Assembly: GCF_003244315.1 (NCBI RefSeq)
Contig: NZ_QKWH01000004.1
Span: 62,001 to 126,000 of the forward strand
Reading direction: 5' to 3'
Length of the DNA stretch: 64,000 nucleotides
DNA from: Xylanimonas oleitrophica
GTDB lineage: Bacteria > Actinomycetota > Actinomycetes > Actinomycetales > Cellulomonadaceae
The translations under genes were made by a program, and so were the position numbers. Positions 18,254 through 29,428 of this stretch are shown piece after piece. Each line of letters begins with the position of its first letter. Positions within the stretch are counted from its first letter, which is position 1. The notes beneath the pieces were generated by a model. It did not search any database. It saw only the letters and a program-made list of their open reading frames with translations, and was not told the DNA's origin.

Positions 18254-19030
18254 ATGACCGGAATCATCATCCCTGGCGCCCTCGATGGACGCGTGGCCGT
18301 CGTCACGGGCGCGTCGAGCGGCATCGGCGAGGCCACAGCGGAGATGCTCGCGGCCCTCGGCGCCAAGGTCGCTCTGCTCGCGCGGCGCGCCGACCGCCTG
18401 GACGCCGCCGCGTCGCGTATACAGGGGAACGGCGGTACAGCGCTCGCGGTGCCCACAGATGTCACGGACCGCGCGCAGGTGCTAGTCGCCGCCGACCGCG
18501 TTGCGAGAGAGCTCGGCGAGGTGGACCTGGTGTTCGCGAACGCCGGCGTCCAGCTCATCTCCTCGATCAGCGACCTTAAGGCGGCGGACTGGGACGCCCA
18601 GATCGACCTCAACGTCAAGGGCGTCATGAATACGATCCAGGCGTTCCTGCCCGCCCTGGAGGCCGCCGCGGCGGCGGGCCGGACGGCGGACCTCGTGGCC
18701 ACCTCGTCGATCGCCGCCACCCGGGTCTTGGAGAAGTTCCAGGTGTACTCGGGCACCAAGGCATACGTCAGCCACCTCACCCGCCTGCTACGCACGGAGC
18801 TCGGCCGCAAGAACATCCGCGTGTCGACCGTCGAGCCGGGCATGGTCGACACCGAGCTGCCCGACCACGTCACCGACCCCGACGCGAGCAAGCTCATGGC
18901 CGACCTGATCGAGCAGATCGACGTGCTGCAGTCCCGTGACGTCGCCGAGACGGTCGCGTTCGTCGTCGGGTTGCCGAAGCACGTGAACCTCACCGAGATC
19001 ACGATCCTGCCGACGCAGCAGATCATCTGA
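18254..19030 (+). CDS. Short-chain dehydrogenase/reductase (SDR)
   Basis: A 258-residue classical SDR. The NAD(P)-binding TGASSGIGEA lies near 17-26 and the structural FANAGVQ near 96. The catalytic set is intact: Ser in TSSIAATR, then Tyr and Lys in VYSGTKAY. Basic residues after the second strand (ARRADR) suggest NADP. It ends with ITILPTQQ, a C-terminus shared in form with the SDRs at 25911 and 28595, so these three are paralogues. RBS AAGGAG lies 8 bases before ATG. It is first in an operon with a flavin reductase-like protein and two more SDRs. Confidence 0.9.
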   Translation: MTGIIIPGALDGRVAVVTGASSGIGEATAEMLAALGAKVALLARRADRLDAAASRIQGNGGTALAVPTDVTDRAQVLVAADRVARELGEVDLVFANAGVQLISSISDLKAADWDAQIDLNVKGVMNTIQAFLPALEAAAAAGRTADLVATSSIAATRVLEKFQVYSGTKAYVSHLTRLLRTELGRKNIRVSTVEPGMVDTELPDHVTDPDASKLMADLIEQIDVLQSRDVAETVAFVVGLPKHVNLTEITILPTQQII

Positions 19031-19038
19031 GGGCCGTC

Positions 19039-19626
19039 ATGACCGACCGACCGACCAACCGGCTCACCGACCGGTTTACGCGGTACCCGCTGGACAAGGT
19101 GCACCGGCTCTTCGAGCCGGGGCCCGTGGTGTTGGTCTCCACCTCGGACGGGCGGCACGCAAATCTCATGACCAACGGGTTCAACATGCCGGTACGGCAC
19201 TCGTCGACGATCGCCCTGGTCGTCGGGCCGTGGGACGACACGTTCACGGCGCTGCGCGACACCGGCGAGTGCGTCGTCGGCATCCCGGGTCGCGAGCTCC
19301 TCGAGAAGGTCGTCGACATCGGGAACGTGTCGGGCGCCGACGTCGACAAGTGGGAACGCTACGGCCTCACCCCGGCGCCCGGGGAGGCGGTGCGGGCGCC
19401 GCTCGTGGCGGAGTGCTTCGCCAACGTCGAGTGCACCGTGGCCGACGACCGTCTCGTGGACGACCACGACCTGTGGCTGCTGCGAATCGAGCAGGCGTGG
19501 ATCGACCCGGCTGCACCCGCGGGCGCGGAGATCCACCACCGCGGTGACGGCACGTTCTCCGCGAACGGTGAGCTGATCGACCTGCGGGCGCGCATGACCA
19601 AATGGGAAGCACTCACCCGCGACTGA
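19039..19626 (+). CDS. Flavin reductase-like (FMN-binding split-barrel) protein
   Basis: A 195-residue protein of the flavin reductase-like family. It shows PGPVVLVSTSDGRHANLMTN near 31, the NGFNMPVRHSS segment and VIGIPG-like VVGIPGRELLEK, which together form the FMN-binding split barrel. Members either bind FMN and pass electrons or are the reductase partner of two-component monooxygenases. No monooxygenase gene is adjacent. It starts 9 bases after the first SDR stop, so it is in the same operon. The substrate is not known. Confidence 0.85.
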   Translation: MTDRPTNRLTDRFTRYPLDKVHRLFEPGPVVLVSTSDGRHANLMTNGFNMPVRHSSTIALVVGPWDDTFTALRDTGECVVGIPGRELLEKVVDIGNVSGADVDKWERYGLTPAPGEAVRAPLVAECFANVECTVADDRLVDDHDLWLLRIEQAWIDPAAPAGAEIHHRGDGTFSANGELIDLRARMTKWEALTRD

Positions 19627-19675
19627 CGACCGGGGCGGCGGGTGCGCCGCGCTGCCAGAACGAGGGAGACGAGAG

Positions 19676-20470
19676 ATGGAGATCCAGGGCAGGACCGTGG
19701 TGCTCACCGGCGCGACCAGCGGGATCGGCGCGGCGGCGGCCCGGCGGTTGGCGCAGGAGGTCGGGCTCCTGATCGTGCAGGGCCCAGAGTCCGAGGCAGA
19801 CGTCTCGGACCTGCTGCGCGAGCTGCGGGCCGCGGGCAGTGCCCGGGTGGAGTACGTGAGTGCGGACTTTGCGTCGTTCGCAGAGGTCCGCCGCGCCGCG
19901 CGGTACGTGCTCAGGACCACGGACCGGATCGACGTGCTGATCAACAACGCCGGCGTGGCCGGCAGCAGGAGCCGACAGCTCACAGCTGACGGCAACGAGC
20001 GGACCCTCCAGGTCAACTACCTCGCTCTCGTGCTCTGGTCGGATCTCCTGGTGCCCGGCATGCGCGACGGCGCGCGCATCGTCAACGTCAGTTCGACGAC
20101 GCACCGGATGACCTCACTCGCGTTGGACGACATCAGCCTCGCCCACGGATACGACCCGGTCCGGGCATACGCGCAGTCGAAGCTTGCGATCGTCACCTAC
20201 TCGACGTGGCTCGCGGGCCGTCTGCCGCGCGGCATCAGCGTCGTCGCGATCAGCCCCGGTGTGATCAGCACCGCCCTGCTGCACTCCATGTTCGGCGGCG
20301 GTGGGGCACCGGTGGCCCACGGGGCGGAGCGCATACGCGAGGCAGTGCTCGCCGACGTCCCTTCCGGCACGTACATCGACGACGGCGACGTCGTCGCCGC
20401 CAGTGACGACGCCCTCGACGAGACCGCCCAGGACAGGCTCGCTGAGCTCACCCGGCGGCTGACCGCCTGA
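19676..20470 (+). CDS. Short-chain dehydrogenase, retinol-dehydrogenase-like
   Basis: A 264-residue SDR with TGATSGIGAAAARRL near 12 and LINNAGVAGSRSRQLTADGNE near 91, the latter pattern typical of the retinol dehydrogenase/WW-oxidoreductase-like group. The catalytic residues are intact: NVSSTTHR, then YAQSKLA. An extra C-terminal stretch of about 30 residues follows. RBS GAGGGAGACGAGAG precedes ATG. It is third in the operon, 50 bases after the flavin reductase-like gene. Confidence 0.88.
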   Translation: MEIQGRTVVLTGATSGIGAAAARRLAQEVGLLIVQGPESEADVSDLLRELRAAGSARVEYVSADFASFAEVRRAARYVLRTTDRIDVLINNAGVAGSRSRQLTADGNERTLQVNYLALVLWSDLLVPGMRDGARIVNVSSTTHRMTSLALDDISLAHGYDPVRAYAQSKLAIVTYSTWLAGRLPRGISVVAISPGVISTALLHSMFGGGGAPVAHGAERIREAVLADVPSGTYIDDGDVVAASDDALDETAQDRLAELTRRLTA

Positions 20471-20541
20471 CCTACGGAGCGGGACCTCGCTCCGTACCCC
20501 CGAGAAGCACCGAACAAGGTACACACGGAAGGGAACACCTC

Positions 20542-21276
20542 ATGGGAAAGCTGGAAGGAAAGGTCGCCATCATCACCGGAGCCGCTCGCGGAATGGGCGC
20601 GGCGCACGCACGGCTCTTCGTGGCGGAGGGCGCCAAGGTGGTCCTCGCCGACGTGCTCACCGAGCAGGGCGAGCAGGTTGCCAAGGAGCTCGGTGACAGC
20701 GCTCGGTTCGTCGAGCTGGACGTGCGCGACCGAGACCGGTGGACCGTGGTGGTCGACACAGCCGTGCGCGAGTTCGGCCGCGTCGACATCCTGGTCAACA
20801 ATGCCGGGATCTTCCGTCGCGAGCCGATCGAGTCGCACAGCCACGAGATGTGGGACGAAGTCATCGGCGTCAACCTGACCGGCGTCTGGAACGGGACGAA
20901 GGCCGTCATCGACGCCATGCGCGAGGCCGGCGGCGGGTCCATCATCAACATCTCGTCGACGGCAGGCATCACCGGCTATGCGTACCTGCCCGCGTACTCG
21001 GCCTCGAAGTGGGCGCTGCGCGGCCTCACCAAGGCGACGGCGCTCGACCTCGGTGGGTTCGGCATCCGCGCCAACACGGTGCACCCCGGATTCGTGCGGA
21101 CGCCCATGACCGAGGATCTCGGTGACAACACCGCCAACGTCGCCTTGCACCGCCAGGCCGCGGACACGGAACTCTCACCTCTCGTGCTCTTCCTGGCGAG
21201 CGACGACTCTGCTTTTGCCACCGGCGGCGAGTTCATCGCCGACGGCGGCGAGTCGGCAGGCATCCCGGCTCGATAG
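20542..21276 (+). CDS. Short-chain dehydrogenase, 3-alpha-hydroxysteroid/FabG-like
   Basis: A 244-residue classical SDR. Cofactor motif TGAARGMGAAHARLF at 13-27, Asp after the second strand (VLADV), which favours NAD, and LVNNAGIF near 85. Catalytic Ser in INISSTAG, Tyr and Lys in YSASKWAL. The pattern resembles hydroxysteroid and cyclohexanol dehydrogenases, so a cyclic alcohol substrate is plausible but not shown. A long leader (72 bases) with GGAAGGGAAC near the ATG separates it from the previous SDR. The terminator follows. Confidence 0.9.
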   Translation: MGKLEGKVAIITGAARGMGAAHARLFVAEGAKVVLADVLTEQGEQVAKELGDSARFVELDVRDRDRWTVVVDTAVREFGRVDILVNNAGIFRREPIESHSHEMWDEVIGVNLTGVWNGTKAVIDAMREAGGGSIINISSTAGITGYAYLPAYSASKWALRGLTKATALDLGGFGIRANTVHPGFVRTPMTEDLGDNTANVALHRQAADTELSPLVLFLASDDSAFATGGEFIADGGESAGIPAR

Positions 21277-21467: not shown

Positions 21468-22304
21468 TCAGCCGATGACCAGGTCGTCGTGGGTCGATGT
21501 CGTCGGCATCACCGAGAGCAGCTGGAAGGCCCGCTCTGCCGCGCTCCCCGGCTCGGCGCCGTACACGACCAACTGGTGCCCGGGCATCGCGGAGACCTCG
21601 AGCGCGTCGAAGTCGATCACGAACTCACCGACGTCGGGGTGCCGAAGCGTCTTCTGGTCGTGAGTCTTCGGAACCACTTCGTGCGCGGTCCAGAGTTCGG
21701 CGAAGTAGGTGCTGCCGGACGTGAGTCGGTCCAGAAGCTCCTTGCGGCGCGCTGTGCCGGCGTAGAGCCCGGAGGTGGCACGCAGGTTGGCGACGCAGCC
21801 GGTGGCGGCGCGCTCCCAGTCGACGTAGAACGTGCGGCCCGCCGGGTCGAGGAACACCATCTCGACAAGGTTGCGCGTCGTGGCGAACGGCCGGAACATC
21901 TGGGTCGCGAGCCGGTTCGTCGCCACGATGTCGAGCAGGGGATCGAGGACGAAACAGGCCGCTCCGGGCCAACGCTCCATCAGTCGAGTCAAGGTGGTGT
22001 CCGCCAGCTCCGGCGTCTGGGGGAGCTCGGGCACCCAGACGAGCTGCGCGAGCTCGTAGGCGTAGCGCCGCTCGTGGACGGTGAGGTCCAACGAATGTGC
22101 CAGGGCGTCCAGTACCTGCGCGGACGGGTTCGTCTCCCGCCCCTGCTCGAGCCGCGTGTAGTAGTCGACGCTCACGCCGGCGAGCAGCGCCACCTCGTCC
22201 CGGCGGAGGCCTGGGACACGTCGTCGCCCGGAGGATGGGAAGGGCAGCGCCTCGACCGAGGCGGCAGCTCGCTTGGCCCGGAGAAAATCGCCCAGCTCAC
22301 TCAT
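21468..22304 (-). CDS. XRE-family regulator with MmyB-like ligand-binding domain
   Basis: A 278-residue DNA-binding regulator. The N-terminal helix-turn-helix runs LGDFLRAKR, then GLRRDEVALLAGVSVDYYTRLEQGR near 32-56. The MmyB-like domain follows, with MVFLDPAGRTFYVDWERAA near 155, FAELWTAHEV near 205 and LRHPDVGEFVIDFDALEV near 222. This domain binds fatty-acyl-like ligands in the one structure known. In actinobacteria such regulators usually sit beside and control SDR or NAD(P)H-oxidoreductase genes, which fits the convergent SDR operon and the divergent DUF1330 gene. A second ATG at 22316 is an alternative start. No strong ribosome binding site is seen. Confidence 0.9.
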   Translation of the reverse strand: MSELGDFLRAKRAAASVEALPFPSSGRRRVPGLRRDEVALLAGVSVDYYTRLEQGRETNPSAQVLDALAHSLDLTVHERRYAYELAQLVWVPELPQTPELADTTLTRLMERWPGAACFVLDPLLDIVATNRLATQMFRPFATTRNLVEMVFLDPAGRTFYVDWERAATGCVANLRATSGLYAGTARRKELLDRLTSGSTYFAELWTAHEVVPKTHDQKTLRHPDVGEFVIDFDALEVSAMPGHQLVVYGAEPGSAAERAFQLLSVMPTTSTHDDLVIG

Positions 22305-22486
22305 GTTCGGTCCCATCGGACGAGCGACGGTTGCGGTGTCCTGCCAACCTCCGCGAGGAGGGTCGCACGGTGATACGTGGCTACGCACGAATACTAACCG
22401 GCCGTTGTTGCTCAATCGAGGTCCGGCTGCGTCCGGCGCGAGGGTGGGTGTGACAGGGCGTGGTTCGACCTTGGCCGAGCTCGTAT

Positions 22487-23161: not shown

Positions 23162-23926
23162 ATGACCACTACGGCATTTGAGCCGGCTCCTGCGGGGACC
23201 GGCACCGCACTGTCGCTCACCGGAGCGACACGCATATACGGTGCCGGAGAGACCGGTGTCATCGCCTTGCGCGACGTCTCGCTCGAGTTGCGCCAAAGCA
23301 GCTGGACCGCCGTCATGGGGCCCTCCGGGTCCGGTAAGTCGACACTGCTCCAGGTTGCCGCAGGGCTCGATCGCGTCGACAGCGGCCGAGTCGTCCTCGG
23401 CGGCACGGACATCACCCACGCCTCGGACCAGGAACGCACCGAGCTGCGCCGCGAGCGCATCGGCTTCGTGTTCCAGAACTTCAACCTCATCGGCGCGCTC
23501 ACCGCCGAACAGAATGTCGCGCTTCCCCTAGAACTGGCGGGGCGCCCGCCCGGGCGTGACACGGTGCGGCAGGCGCTCGCGCTCGTCGGCCTGGGCGAGC
23601 GTGCCACCCACCGGCCGCGGGAGCTCTCCGGAGGCCAGCAGCAACGGGTCGCCATCGCACGGGCGATGATCACCCGCCCGCAGGTGCTCTTCGCCGACGA
23701 ACCGACCGGTGCCCTCGACTCGGCGGCCGCACGGGTGGTGCTGGAGCTGATGCGCGAGATGACCCGCAGCGGGCAGACGATCCTCATGGTGACGCACGAT
23801 CCAGCCGCAGCCGCGGCCGCCGACGAGACGGTCTTCCTGCGGGACGGCCAGCTGATCGACCGTGTCGCGGGCGCGGACGCCACCACGATCGCGAGCCGGC
23901 TCGTCGTGCTCGAGGCCAGGCGATGA
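23162..23926 (+). CDS. ABC transporter ATPase, MacB/LolD-like
   Basis: A 254-residue ATPase. Walker A is GPSGSGKST near 53, the Q-loop is [13 protein letters not shown], the signature is ELSGGQQQR near 156, and Walker B is [13 protein letters not shown] with the H-loop VTHD. The Q-loop and GALD sequences are those of the MacB/FtsE/LolD group, which works with FtsX-type permeases rather than as a classical importer. It overlaps the permease gene by 4 bases (ATGA). Such pairs export peptides, antibiotics or lipoproteins, or act as mechanotransmitters; the cargo is unknown. Confidence 0.93.
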
Positions 23927-25860
23927 ACCGCCTCGCCCTCACGGGCTTCGTCGAACGCTGGCAGACCTACGTTGGCGCGTTCGTCACCGTGGCCTTCGGT
24001 GTCGGCCTCGTGCAGTCCTCGCTGCTGCTGCTCCTGTCCGTCGCCGGGATGGAGCCGGCCGGCGGAACCGACGCCGTGATGCGCGCCGCCTACGACAGCA
24101 CCCGCCTGGTCGCCGTGACCGTCGTCTCGGTGACGCTGGGGTTCGGCGCGTTCCTCGCCGTGTTCATCATCGCTTCCACCTTCGCGTTCTCCGTCACAGA
24201 ACGACGCCGCGACCTTGCACTGCTGCGCATCATCGGTGCCGATGTCTCCCAGCTGCGCCGCATGCTCCTGGCGGAGGCCGTCGTCCTCGGTTCGCTCGGG
24301 GCGGCAGTCGGCATCCCTGTCGGCGCCGCCCTGCAGCAGGTCCAGACCAGCCTGCTGACCAGGTTCGGATTCCTGCCGAACACCTTCACGGCCGCATGGC
24401 AGCCGTGGATCGTGCCTGCCTCGCTCGCGATGGGCATCGCTCTGACGCTCGCCGGGGTGGCGCTGGCGGCCCGGCGAGCGGCCCGGATCGACCCGCTCGA
24501 CGCCCTCCGTTCGACGGGTGCGGCCGAGCGGCCGCTGAACCGAGCTCGTGCGGTGAGTGGGGGCGCGCTCGTCCTCGCGGCGATCGCACTGGTAGTCACG
24601 GCACCGTTCGGTGGCCTCGCCGGAGCGCAGGCGATGGCCATGTCGGCCGGGATCACTGCGGCCCTCGCGATCACGGTGCTCGCCCCGGTGCTGGTGCCGG
24701 CCGTCGTGTCGCTCGTGCCGCGGAGCTCCTCGCCGGTCACCCGGCTCGCCGTTGCCAATCTGCGGGACGCGACCACTCGCTCGGCGTCTACGGCGGCACC
24801 GTTGATCGTGCTTGTGGCGCTAGTCCTCAGCCAACCGATCGCCATGCTCTCGTTCGGCGACGCGGCCATGGCCCAGACGGTGCGCGGGACTGAGGCCGAC
24901 CTGGTGCTGCGGTCCACGGGGTCGCCGGATGCGGATCCTCGCCAGGTCACCGGTGTGGCGAACGCGTCGACCGAGTGGACCGTGCCGGTCCGCGTCCAGC
25001 CGTCGGGGTCCGCGATCCCCGGCATGTCGGAGGAGGTCGCCGGTACGCCGCTGGCCGTGACCACCCAGGCCCTGGTGGTCGACCCCATCGAGTTCGGGGT
25101 GGCCCACCCCGGGGCAGCCGGAGCGGTCGACGGCCTGCGGGCCGGCGACGCGGCACCTGGGCCCGGAGCGGCAGGCCTTGGGCTCGGCACCGGCGGCACG
25201 GTCAGTATCGGAGGGCGCGACCTCGGTGCCGTGCGCCTCGGCGCCGAGGTCGCGGCCGGCAGCGGCGGCTCGGCCGGCGTCGTGCTCCCGCGTGACCTTG
25301 TGCCCCCGGACATCCTGCAGCGGGTGCCCGCCACGACGTTCGTCACGCTGGACGACGACGCTGACGCGGCCGCCGTGGCCACCGAGCTGGGCCGGCTCGG
25401 ACAGGTGACCGATCTGGAGACCTGGGCGGCGGACGCAGGTGCGGCCGGGCAGGACCAGAACGCACGGGTGCTCGTCGTGGTGATGGCGGTCGGAGCGGCG
25501 TACGCGGTCATCGGGGTGGTCAACGCGATCGCGATCGCGACCTCGGGCCGGCGCTACGAGTTCGCCGTCGCGCGTGCGAGCGGCATGACGCGCTCCCAGT
25601 CCCTCCGGGCCGCGGTCCTGGAGACCCTGCTGGTCGGCGGGTCGGCGATCCTCCTCGGAGCCGTCGCGACAGCGACCACCGTGCTCGCGGTCCTGACATC
25701 GACGGCCCACGTCACAGGCGTCGCGACGTTGGACGTGCCCTGGCTGCTCGTGGCGGCGGTCGCGGGCGGCGGACTTCTCCTCACGGGCCTGGCGGGGTGG
25801 CTCACGGCCACTGGCGCGATGCGGCGTGAGCCCGCAGGTGTGCTGCTGGCCCGGGTCTAG
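23923..25860 (+). CDS. FtsX-like ABC permease with two FtsX domains
   Basis: A 645-residue membrane protein. It has an N-terminal helix (about 17-40), a first FtsX domain (helices near 65-250, with [21 protein letters not shown] at about 87-107), four further helices, an extracellular Gly/Ala-rich domain (about 325-510), and a second FtsX domain near the C-terminus ([21 protein letters not shown], about 543). The ERR.ELALLRA.G-type cytoplasmic motifs are the coupling sites for the ATPase. The ATGA overlap with the ATPase gene marks a two-gene operon. It is convergent with the SDR-NhaA-SDR operon, with a 50-base gap. Confidence 0.9.
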
Positions 25861-25910: not shown

Positions 25911-26699
25911 TCACGCCTGGCGGGTCGGCATCACGACGAGCTCCGCCACGTTGACGTTCGGCGGCAGGGACGCGGCGAAGACGACCGAGTGCGCGACGTC
26001 AGAGGGCGTCAGCGGCTGCTCCACGGCACGCATGCGGTTCAGCCGCTCCCGGGCGGTGGCGTCGTCGATCCCTGACCCGAGCGCGCTGAGCGTCGTCCCC
26101 GGCTCGACGTGCCGCACCCGCACACCACGCCCGGAGAGCTCGGCACGCAGGGTGCGGGACAGGTGGGCCCGGGCGGCAGCGGTGGCGGAGTACACGCTGA
26201 ACTCGGGCAGAAGCAGGTGGGAGGCCACCGAGCCGACGAAGACCAGGTCAGTGGGCCGGTCCTCTGCGGCGGTCTCGAGCAGGTCGTCGATGAAGGCGCG
26301 AGCCGTGTTGAGCGACCCGACGATGTTGACGTCGACCATCGAGGCCCACTGCTCCTCCGAGGCGCGCTCGAACGCGCCACCGTACATCACGCCCGCGTTC
26401 GCCACGACCAGGTCGACCCGTCCAAGCGAACGGTGCACGGCGTCGCGGGCGTCGTGCAGCGCCTGCACGTCGGTCACGTCCGCGACCACACCGAGCGCAC
26501 GAGCCCCGGGGACGACGGGGACCGCGCGCTCGGCCAGGAGCACGGACTCCCGCCTGTCCAGCGACGCCACACTGGCTCCGGCGTCCAGCAGCGCGCGGGC
26601 GACGGCCTGGCCGATGCCGCCGGCGGCACCGGTCACTACCGCCGTGCGAGAGCGCAGCAAGTACGGGTTGTCCTCCAGTCGAGCATCCTTGACCAGCAT
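25911..26699 (-). CDS. SDR-fold protein lacking the catalytic lysine
   Basis: A 262-residue SDR. Cofactor motif TGAAGGIGQAVARAL near 24 and VVANAGVM near 100 are present. The catalytic Ser (about 157) and Tyr (170) are in place, but the YxxxK motif reads YSATA: position 174 is Ala, confirmed on the DNA as GCT. Lysine lowers the Tyr pKa and holds the nicotinamide ribose, so normal oxidoreductase activity is doubtful. It is a paralogue of the SDR at 18254 (same C-terminus, LVVMPTRQ). It lies 9 bases after the NhaA stop and is the last gene of the three-gene operon. It may be a pseudoenzyme or a cofactor-binding sensor. Confidence 0.88.
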   Translation of the reverse strand: MLVKDARLEDNPYLLRSRTAVVTGAAGGIGQAVARALLDAGASVASLDRRESVLLAERAVPVVPGARALGVVADVTDVQALHDARDAVHRSLGRVDLVVANAGVMYGGAFERASEEQWASMVDVNIVGSLNTARAFIDDLLETAAEDRPTDLVFVGSVASHLLLPEFSVYSATAAARAHLSRTLRAELSGRGVRVRHVEPGTTLSALGSGIDDATARERLNRMRAVEQPLTPSDVAHSVVFAASLPPNVNVAELVVMPTRQA

Positions 26700-26708
26700 G
26701 GGTCCTCC

Positions 26709-28598
26709 TTAGTTCGGGATGAGATCGGTGACCGGGGCACGGTGCTGCGCCGTGGCGCTGGGGGCATCGGGGACCGCCGCCGGGAACAGCGCGGCGCGCA
26801 GCGCCTCGACGTCGACCGGGCCGTCGTACAGCAGGCCGTTGACGAAGAATGCCGGCGGACCGGGCAGGCCCATGGCCGCCGCGTCAGCGGCGTCCTCCCG
26901 AACCCGGGCGAGGTGGGAGCCGTGCCGCAGTGCGTCGTCGAGCCGGTCCAGATTCAGGCCGGCCTCGGCGGCGCACCGACGCACATCGCGGGACGTGAGG
27001 CGACCGGCGGTTGCGGCGAGCGCGTCGTGCATTTGCCAGAACCGACCCTGCGCGGAGGCCTCCTCGACAGCCTGTGCGGACTCCAGCGCCACAGGATCGT
27101 CGGTGGGGAGGTGCCGGAAGATGAACTGGAGCTGCTCGCCGAGCTCGGCGCGCAGCTCGTCCACGGTCTCCACGGCGCGCCCGGCCACTCCGAAGGCGAA
27201 CGACGCATAGACCACGAGCTGGGTCGGGGCATCCGGCTCCCCGCGCAGATGGTCGCGTCCGCCGTCGACGGGCCGGATCAGGGGCTCCGCCGGCGTGGGC
27301 CGGCGGCGGTCGGTCCGGGCGGCGAGCGCGAAGGCTGCCGCGGCCAGGAGCCCGGCGATCACGGAGGCCGCGAACACGCCGATGCGCGCGTCGGCTCGCA
27401 GCGTGGAGTCGGTCAGGGCCAGGTCGATGATGAACAACGAGATCGTGAAACCGATGCCGGACACCAGGCCGCCCGCCACCAGGTGTCTGGCGTGCAGCCC
27501 GGGGGCAAGGCGGCCGAGCCGCAGACCCACCGCCGCGGTCGCACCCAGCGTGACCCCGACCAGCTTGCCCCCGACCAGGCCGAGGATCACGGCCCAGGTG
27601 ACGGGGGACGTCATCGCGGAGCGGAGCGTGGGTGCGTCGAGCACCACCCCGGCGTTCGCCACCGCGAAGAGGGGCACCACGGCCAGGTTCACGTAGGGTG
27701 CGTACAAGTTGTGCAGGCGCTCGTTCACGGACACGGCGCGCGCGATCCGCAAGGAGGCTTCCCTGCCCCGCCGTGGAGTGGGCGTCCGCGAGAACAGGGC
27801 AGCGGCCTCGGCAGCCGTCTCGACCTTGTCGCGGTTTGGTGGGTAGACCGGTATCACTAGCCCGATCGCAACCCCGGCGAGGGTGGCGTGCATACCCGAC
27901 TCGAGCACCGCGACCCAGACGACGACACCCAGCAGAAGATAGGCCAGGCCCCGCCACACCCGCAGGCGCCGGAGCGCCGCGATAGCCACGGTGGCGACGA
28001 CCGCCACGGCGAGCGGCGCGAGCCGGAGATCCTCCGTGTAGGCGAGTGCCACGACCGCGAGTGCTCCGACGTCGTCGACCACGGCCAGTGTCAGCAGGAA
28101 CAGCCGCAGTGCGGCCGGTGCCCGGCGGCCGACGACGGCAAGCAGCCCGAGGACGAACGCCGTGTCCGTGGAGATGACGACGCCCCAGGCGCCGACCGCC
28201 TCCGGGGGTGCTCCTGCCCAGCCGAGGAGCGAGACGTAGAGGCCGGCGGGGAGCAGCAGCCCGGCGAGGGCGGCGATGATGGGCACCCGGGCTCGGCGTG
28301 GGTCCCGCAGCTCACCGATCGTGAACTCACGCTTGGCCTCGAGGCTGATGAGAAAGAAGAAGAACGCCATGAGGGCGTCGTTGACCCAGTGCCGCAGGTC
28401 GAGCGACAGCTCGACGCCGCCCACGGCCACGGAGGCCGGAGTGTGCCAGAACGACTCGTAGGTCGAGCCGGGCAGGTTGGCCCAGACGAGTGCACCGCCC
28501 GTCGCCAGGAGCAAGGCAATGGCAGCGACGGCAGGAGACGCGTCGAGCCGCGCGCCCAGTCGCCGGTCCTGCCCGGGGTCCGTCGAGAGGCGAGTCAC
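26709..28598 (-). CDS. nhaA: NhaA Na+/H+ antiporter fused to a cysteine-less thioredoxin-like domain
   Basis: A 629-residue fusion. Residues about 1-430 are NhaA with the Asp pair in VVDDVGAL (near 175) that binds Na+/H+, and the conserved GIGFTISLFI near 390. A DsbA-type thioredoxin fold follows from about 450. Actinobacterial NhaA often has this tail, usually with FECPYCG; here the site reads SFAFGVAG, with no cysteine. The cis-proline loop (GPPAFFVNG) is kept, so the fold is probably intact but not redox active. The GTG start overlaps the upstream SDR stop by 4 bases. Likely role: sodium/proton exchange at the inner membrane in pH or salt stress. Confidence 0.92.
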   Translation of the reverse strand: MTRLSTDPGQDRRLGARLDASPAVAAIALLLATGGALVWANLPGSTYESFWHTPASVAVGGVELSLDLRHWVNDALMAFFFFLISLEAKREFTIGELRDPRRARVPIIAALAGLLLPAGLYVSLLGWAGAPPEAVGAWGVVISTDTAFVLGLLAVVGRRAPAALRLFLLTLAVVDDVGALAVVALAYTEDLRLAPLAVAVVATVAIAALRRLRVWRGLAYLLLGVVVWVAVLESGMHATLAGVAIGLVIPVYPPNRDKVETAAEAAALFSRTPTPRRGREASLRIARAVSVNERLHNLYAPYVNLAVVPLFAVANAGVVLDAPTLRSAMTSPVTWAVILGLVGGKLVGVTLGATAAVGLRLGRLAPGLHARHLVAGGLVSGIGFTISLFIIDLALTDSTLRADARIGVFAASVIAGLLAAAAFALAARTDRRRPTPAEPLIRPVDGGRDHLRGEPDAPTQLVVYASFAFGVAGRAVETVDELRAELGEQLQFIFRHLPTDDPVALESAQAVEEASAQGRFWQMHDALAATAGRLTSRDVRRCAAEAGLNLDRLDDALRHGSHLARVREDAADAAAMGLPGPPAFFVNGLLYDGPVDVEALRAALFPAAVPDAPSATAQHRAPVTDLIPN

Positions 28599-29428
28599 CG
28601 CAGGCTCCAGCGTGGGCGCTCCCGGGTGGGTGTGCCTTGCACACCTGGCAGAACGGCATCCTGCAGGGTGGGCAGGACCACCATGTCGGTCACCGTCACG
28701 TGCGGCGGCTGGTCCAGGCCGAACATGATCGCGGCGGCGACGTCGGCCGGATCGACAGGCGGAACCTGGTGCCGGAGCGACTGCCACTCCTTGCGTGCGC
28801 TGCGGTCGCTCATCGTCGAGCCCAGGCGGGTCGCGGTGGCGCCGGGCTGCACCTGATGTACTCGCACCCCCTGGGGGCCGAGCTCGACCCGCAAGGTCCG
28901 GGCAAGCTGACCTACGGCTGCTTCGACCGCTGAGTACACCGCGAAGCGGGGAAATCCAGAGCGGCCTGCGATGGCACCTACCAGGACGAGGTCGCTGCGC
29001 TCGTCGCTCTCGGCCGCGACACACAGGTCACGTAGGAAGGTCTGCGAGGTGTGCAACATCCCAGTGAGGTTGGCGTCGATCATCTCCGACCACTCTCCGG
29101 GCACGCTGTGTGCGAACGACCCCCCTGACATCGTTCCGGCGCCTGCGATGACGGCATCGATCGGAGCAGACAGGCGGGCGGCAAGGTTGTCACGGGCCTC
29201 CCGCAGGGAGAAGGCGTCCGACACGTCGACCTCAGCCCATACCACTTGTTCGCTGGCGTTGCGGGCAAGGTCGGTTGCCGCATAGCGCAGCGCGCGCCCA
29301 TCTCGGTCGAGCATTGCCACCGCGTCACCGCGCGCCACCAGGAGCCTCGCGCACGCCAGGCCGATACCGCTGGCAGCACCTGTGACCACAGCGACCCGGT
29401 GGGGCCCTGGGCTGGCTGTGGGTTCCAT
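28595..29428 (-). CDS. SDR-fold protein lacking both catalytic Ser and Lys
   Basis: A 277-residue SDR and first gene of the operon with NhaA. The cofactor motif TGAASGIGLACARLL near 17 is intact. The usual NAG is AGAG. Tyr165 is present, but Lys is replaced by Glu (YSAVE) and the Ser 13 residues before Tyr is Ala (GAIAGRSG). It is therefore very unlikely to catalyse a normal dehydrogenase reaction. It shares the C-terminal pattern MVVLPTLQ with the SDRs at 18254 and 25911, followed by a 20-residue extra tail. It overlaps nhaA by 4 bases. A regulatory or scaffolding role is inferred from context only. Confidence 0.88.
   Translation of the reverse strand: MEPTASPGPHRVAVVTGAASGIGLACARLLVARGDAVAMLDRDGRALRYAATDLARNASEQVVWAEVDVSDAFSLREARDNLAARLSAPIDAVIAGAGTMSGGSFAHSVPGEWSEMIDANLTGMLHTSQTFLRDLCVAAESDERSDLVLVGAIAGRSGFPRFAVYSAVEAAVGQLARTLRVELGPQGVRVHQVQPGATATRLGSTMSDRSARKEWQSLRHQVPPVDPADVAAAIMFGLDQPPHVTVTDMVVLPTLQDAVLPGVQGTPTRERPRWSLR

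Follow-up and report, generated by a model that had tools for sequence, protein, structure and literature searches.

Lysine-less short-chain dehydrogenases conserved beside a redox-dead NhaA-thioredoxin fusion in actinobacteria, and their possible role as antiporter partners

The window analysed here, a stretch of 64,000 nucleotides from contig NZ_QKWH01000004.1 of Xylanimonas oleitrophica, carries a packed operon in which an NhaA-type Na+/H+ antiporter fused to a thioredoxin-like tail is encoded between two classical short-chain dehydrogenases/reductases (SDRs), termed SDR1 and SDR2. Both SDRs have lost the catalytic lysine and the tail has lost its CxxC site, and the same module is found in 14 actinobacterial genomes, where it has a single origin, is inherited jointly, has lost catalytic residues jointly and is under purifying selection with the ion site of the antiporter intact. 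On the strength of these sequence comparisons, we suggest that the lysine-less SDRs now serve the antiporter as partners, either regulatory or structural.

A first-pass annotation of this DNA had described the three genes as overlapping or nearly touching, and the sequence bears this out: the stop of SDR1 and the inferred GTG start of the NhaA gene share a GTGA, and SDR2, preceded by AGGAGG, starts at 26699, 9 bases after the end of the NhaA gene at 26709 (Table 1). The middle gene matches Na_H_antiport_1 (4.2e-117) and Thioredoxin_4 (6.2e-13) in Pfam, the antiporter match reaching 391.6 bits with PF06965 (curated cut-off 23.5) and 299.4 with TIGR00773 (cut-off 254). Pfam reports only antiporter, Thioredoxin_4 and DSBA matches in this protein, and no KTN/RCK C-terminal domain was found among them. 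The Ser-Tyr-Lys (YxxxK) triad of catalytic classical SDRs is incomplete in both SDRs; SDR1 has Ala152 for Ser, retains Tyr165 and has Glu169 for Lys, and SDR2 retains Ser157 and Tyr170 and has Ala174 for Lys, so that the annotated loss of Lys from both proteins, at positions 174 and 169, and of Ser from the one with Glu, is correct. In the tail, FGVA occupies the position at which relatives have CPFC, CPYC and variants, and the CxxC of redox-active DsbA-like thioredoxins is absent, again as annotated. The retained features named in the same annotation are likewise present. The cofactor motif TGxxxGxG is found in both SDRs (TGAASGIG in SDR1, TGAAGGIG in SDR2), and the antiporter keeps residues that align with Asp133, Asp163, Asp164 and Lys300 of Escherichia coli NhaA, which we take to be the ion-site residues under that numbering. 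Strand 2 ends in Asp in both window SDRs (LDRD, LDRR), a residue that commonly marks a preference for NAD(H), whereas SDR1 of Salinibacterium (L012) and of Labedella (L013) has VARD and VGRD, respectively, at this place. Within the window's own genome there are 30 PF00106 matches, and the only readable ones without the lysine are the two SDRs of the NhaA operon, the other 22 with a readable site all having YxxxK and 6 being unreadable.

The genomes searched for further copies were samples of the groups named below. When genome contigs were scanned with the NhaA protein and the best 80 of 240 relatives were kept, the match covered the tail in 25 loci (fewer than 400 bases on one side in two, L021 and L027). 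CxxC is absent in six of these 25, and a lysine-less SDR adjoins NhaA in five of the six, as against none of the 19 CxxC-bearing loci (2 of the 19 without upstream flank). An SDR1 profile matched in 18 of the 221 genomes searched in the window's family; in 5 of the 18, lysine-less SDRs lie beside NhaA, and G150, G093 and G220 were new members. Matches in 2 of 151 genomes of the family of G550 and in 4 of 219 genomes of the family to which the Labedella genome belongs added G1026, G1221, G1164 and G1077. As these seven members were found through SDR1, they cannot serve as independent evidence that dead tails and SDRs are linked. Among the SDR1-profile matches listed, the remaining ones keep YxxxK (19 rows out of 28 for the family, 8 out of 13 for the order). 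L006 and G033 are counted as one member (L006 is taken to be G033), and so are L013 and G1055. The module is present in Cellulomonadaceae (the window's family), Geodermatophilaceae, Microbacteriaceae and a fourth family, f3 (G550, G1026).

Recurrence of the arrangement with the same losses had been proposed as the check on its reality, and this is what is found: Lys is absent from all 14 SDR1 and all 8 SDR2 proteins (0 of 22) and CxxC from all 14 tails. The Ser/Tyr/Lys positions of SDR1 read AYE in the window, C. hominis (L006), G150 and Geodermatophilus amargosae (L007), AYS in G093, AFS in G220, Labedella, Herbiconiux (L015), G1221 and G1077, SFS in Salinibacterium and G1164, and TFG in G550 and G1026; 9 of the 14 have lost Tyr, and 12 have lost Ser. 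In SDR2 they read SYA in the window, G033, G150, G220 and G1026, SYS in G550, SYQ in G1077 and SHA in Geodermatophilus (Ser kept in 8/8, Tyr in 7/8). In place of the lysine, SDR1 has E, S or G and SDR2 has A, S or Q, with no common substitute. A glycine-rich motif is kept in every SDR1, as TGxxxGxG in seven and only as GxxGxxG in seven. The SDR2 of Geodermatophilus (L007:6842-7495) is an open frame without the glycine motif and the early Rossmann part, with His at the catalytic Tyr. The ion-site strings STD and DD are present in the NhaA of all 14 members, and the Lys is invariant in the nine that were aligned. Six members have the gene order SDR1-NhaA-SDR2 (window, G033, G150, L007, G550, G1026) and two SDR2-SDR1-NhaA (G220, G1077), indicating that the SDRs and NhaA stay together through rearrangement. 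A second NhaA-thioredoxin fusion, with CxxC, is encoded in two of four member genomes searched (Geodermatophilus, Salinibacterium), and the redox-dead fusion is therefore no replacement for it there.

The trees point to one origin. In an antiporter tree made without the thioredoxin part (54 rows), the 14 members form one clade with support of 100/99, in agreement with an earlier tree of 63 rows and 10 members, and redox-dead fusions without SDR neighbours (Amycolatopsis L014, G361 and G568) sit at two other places. With the lysine column retained in the SDR trees, SDR1 (14 sequences) is one clade at 100/99, SDR2 (8 sequences) is one clade at 98/93, and the two together form one clade at 98/92 apart from 30 normal SDRs, which were taken from search hits such that a closer normal relative may exist. 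The very long branch of the G550 SDR2 lay inside SDR1 in the first SDR tree and lies within SDR2 after addition of its sister G1026. No intact, Lys-bearing homologue of SDR1 or SDR2 was seen beside NhaA in the searches, and the nearest normal relatives in the SDR tree (L284, L285, L287) have no NhaA in their short flanks. Read most simply, these trees imply the recruitment of one SDR beside an NhaA-thioredoxin fusion, followed by its duplication and the loss of catalysis, after which the genes were retained or transferred together.

The link between dead tail and lysine-less SDR was also counted in a census that disregarded SDRs, using NhaA profiles built from the module antiporters (E <= 1e-140 or 1e-150). 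The order search gave 57 fusions in 56 genomes (396 genomes) and the class search 83 fusions in 82 genomes (394 genomes), which combine to 126 distinct fusions, 121 with CxxC and 5 without. A same-strand lysine-less SDR lies within 400 bases in three of the five redox-dead fusions (window, G033, G550) as against 0 of the 121 with CxxC; fewer than 400 bases were available on one side in 4 of the 126 loci (L148, L263, L270, L272). The Fisher p of 3e-5 for this link is overstated because the link has one evolutionary origin. A chance pairing in one genome is rejected in view of the 14 members and the census. The fusions of L014 (Amycolatopsis), L159 (G568) and L193 (G361) have neither CxxC nor SDR neighbours. 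At L157:5438-5989 (G350), a normal YxxxK SDR follows a CxxC fusion gene by 121 bases, the sole case among the 121 of a same-strand SDR within 400 bases. Unfused arrangements also occur: at L043:2612-4419 a CxxC thioredoxin-like stretch lies directly upstream of NhaA, preceded by a normal SDR, and in L036 a thioredoxin-like stretch follows NhaA on the opposite strand.

Selection on the three genes was estimated as the ratio of nonsynonymous to synonymous substitution rates (dN/dS) by the NG86 method without correction for the strong G+C bias, with pairs drawn from 8 of 14 SDR1, 7 of 14 NhaA and 4 of 8 SDR2 sequences and none between the three Microbacteriaceae and the rest. The ratio is 0.184-0.369 for SDR1 (9 pairs), 0.154-0.339 for SDR2 (6 pairs) and 0.196-0.383 for NhaA (9 pairs; 0.197-0.420 in 9 pairs for the tail alone), and one normal SDR pair gives 0.311. 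All 28 whole-gene pairs give a value below 1, and 24 of them one of 0.15-0.4, which makes plain decay unlikely; none of the 14 members found with the arrangement keeps Lys or CxxC, a retention that the first-pass annotation had named as a sign of simple decay. Conservation along SDR1 is highest in the first strand (0.73), followed by the strand at 189-195 (0.66), and its best-conserved helices are 160-186 (0.64) and 110-140 (0.55), which correspond to the usual SDR dimer helices. The segments 209-221 (0.20, among the lowest) and 227-238 (0.37), presumably the substrate side, are poorly conserved. Such a pattern would fit an SDR1 that retains its fold and its pairing and may still bind a nucleotide, but that has no fixed substrate. 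The AlphaFold2 (AF2) model of SDR1 (mean predicted local distance difference test, pLDDT, 87.5) matches classical SDR enzymes, the best in the PDB being 2jah, a clavulanic acid dehydrogenase. The NhaA model (mean pLDDT 85.3, predicted template modelling score, pTM, 0.73) matches E. coli NhaA, and its tail matches thioredoxin- and DsbA-like proteins.

The joint loss of catalytic residues in three selected parts and a neighbourhood kept despite changed gene order point to a complex. The first-pass annotation had proposed a non-catalytic assembly; a conserved set of apparently non-catalytic parts is well supported by recurrence and dN/dS, and these parts may be in physical contact. As the C-terminus of NhaA faces the cytoplasm, the tail would lie where the SDRs are. 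The paralogous SDR1 and SDR2 might pair as ordinary SDR dimers or tetramers, the SDR assembly would dock on the redox-dead tail at the cytoplasmic side of NhaA, and the docked SDRs would set the Na+/H+ exchange activity; the likely signal would be the binding of NAD(H) or NADP(H) by SDR1. We favour this account, in which the SDRs are non-catalytic accessory subunits of the antiporter, but hold it tentatively. The version in which both SDRs read NAD(H), and the antiporter is gated by three pseudoenzyme parts with the tail as docking site, is more doubtful.

Several observations weigh against a nucleotide-reading accessory role. The lost SDR lysine normally also contacts the nicotinamide ribose, as described for MAT2B in the text consulted (PMC3793261), and its loss is expected to weaken nicotinamide binding; half of the SDR1 proteins keep only GxxGxxG, and the Geodermatophilus SDR2 has lost its glycine motif. 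A lysine-less SDR2 was not found beside NhaA in 5 of the 14 members (L012, L013, L015, G1221, G1164), and the G093 contig ends inside NhaA, so that its SDR2 status is not judgeable. SDR1 of G220 evolves faster (dN/dS 0.520-0.686 in 4 pairs, dS 0.70-1.08), and helices 110-140 and 160-186 may be equally conserved in normal SDRs. The module may also belong with an SDR-based metabolic pathway, normal SDRs being found near several members. Finally, the precedent of KefC and its partner KefF, compared below, is debated, the two having formed no complex after separate purification according to the part of the source consulted (PMC11150392).

Of the other explanations, the strongest is that the SDRs and the pseudo-thioredoxin have a structural role alone, stabilising the antiporter or tethering it elsewhere without nucleotide sensing. 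The absence of catalytic residues from all three parts, the conservation of the two SDR1 helices above its others and the retention of the Geodermatophilus SDR2 are all consistent with it, but the glycine-rich motif present in 14/14 SDR1 proteins, in its two forms, and the first strand as the most conserved element argue against it, and we consider a purely structural role rather unlikely.

The surroundings of the module, compared in the 13 member loci other than the window, bear on two further explanations. Relatives of a normal SDR and of an MmyB-like regulator of the window recur near the module (Table 1), and AraC-type regulators lie near it in L012, L013, L015, L336 and L337 (the AraC label being a reading of the L336 sequence). 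SDR1 and SDR2 might bind an organic ligand, e.g. a compound on which the normal SDRs nearby act, and signal its presence to the antiporter, but the poor conservation of segments 209-221 and 227-238 does not accord with the need of one shared ligand, and this explanation appears improbable. No better placed is the proposal that the SDRs still catalyse with an altered active site in an enzyme pathway that includes the transporter; the Ser and Tyr retained in SDR2 and the normal SDRs nearby would agree with this, but the lack of a common substitute for Lys and the frequent loss of Tyr and Ser from SDR1 make it a poor prospect. Independent decay of neighbouring genes is set aside as highly improbable on the trees (one origin and long joint inheritance), the reading frames (open to the contig ends in all 14 genomes) and the low dN/dS of most pairs, even though the losses hit catalytic residues and the G220 SDR1 reaches 0.69.

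Other genes lie near the operon in the window. An ABC ATPase and an FtsX-like permease (23162-25860, plus strand) lie next to SDR2, and a related pair (61% and 43% identity) stands beside the module in L338 (G1077). Three consecutive YxxxK SDR genes (18254-19030, 19676-20470 and 20542-21276; together 18254-21276, plus strand) lie about 5 kb from the operon, and an Atu4866-domain protein (PF11512; 29820-30569, plus strand) is encoded near the operon start on the opposite strand.

Table 1. Features of the window at and near the operon.
Feature	Position	Strand	Details
SDR1	28595..29428	minus	Classical SDR, Pfam adh_short 3.1e-39
NhaA-thioredoxin fusion	26709..28598	minus	629 aa counted from the inferred GTG start
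SDR2	25911..26699	minus	Classical SDR, Pfam adh_short 5.6e-41
GTGA shared by the SDR1 stop and the inferred GTG start of NhaA	28595..28598	minus	Read from the sequence
FGVA codons at the CPxC position of relatives	27183..27194	minus	Residues 469-472 of the NhaA fusion
Normal (YxxxK) SDR, possible associate	19676..20470	plus	Relatives 46-59% identical near the module in 6/13: L012, L015, L145, L147, L336, L337
MmyB-like regulator (MLTR_LBD), possible associate	21468..22346	minus	Relatives near the module in 3/13: L006, L145, L338

Pseudoenzymes that arose together in one operon and persist across bacterial families would make a clear example of enzymes taken on as transporter partners, and the module is compact enough for laboratory testing. 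An antiporter with accessory proteins is a known kind of system; for one made of these parts, the literature searched (few subscription journals, no preprints) gave no description of SDR partners of NhaA. The closest relatives are actinobacterial NhaA proteins with a C-terminal DsbA-like domain, which have the same two domains and the same ion-site residues, the CxxC fusions being 39-53% identical to the window protein over nearly the full length (among the best 80 of 240 relatives); of the 126 in the census, 121 differ from the module in having CxxC, and in no case is a lysine-less SDR found next to one of these. The human heterotetrameric ketoacyl reductase (PDB 4cql, 4cqm), which we take to combine two different classical SDRs in one tetramer, resembles the pairing proposed for SDR1 and SDR2, but is an enzyme and has no transporter. 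MAT2B, HSCARG/NMRAL1 and NmrA are extended or atypical SDRs, whereas the module SDRs are classical. Like the SDRs proposed here, these proteins are SDR folds that serve as regulators; in the text consulted, HSCARG/NMRAL1 and NmrA are named as SDR regulators with NAD(P) sensing as a common feature, and MAT2B regulates MAT2A, its authors speculating on redox sensing (PMC3793261). MAT2B differs in that its catalytic triad is kept, and that text makes no mention of a transporter partner (PMC3793261). Kef offers the closest working parallel. Its antiporter KefC shares the NhaA fold (PMC11150392); NADH is listed among the inhibitory ligands of KefC, whose KTN domains carry an ancillary subunit, KefF, that is a quinone oxidoreductase homologue (PMC2920069). 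On the account favoured here, both systems would combine an NhaA-fold antiporter, an oxidoreductase-like ancillary subunit and cytoplasmic nucleotide-binding parts. They differ in that the KTN/RCK domain of Kef is fused to the antiporter and that KefF binds FMN and has a seemingly intact active site, whereas the module has separate lysine-less SDRs and a pseudo-thioredoxin, with no KTN domain found by Pfam. Should NAD(H) be the means by which the SDRs gate NhaA, sodium and pH exchange in these bacteria would depend directly on the redox state of the cell, and dinucleotide control of a proton antiporter would have been invented a second time, independently, on a different fold from that of Kef.

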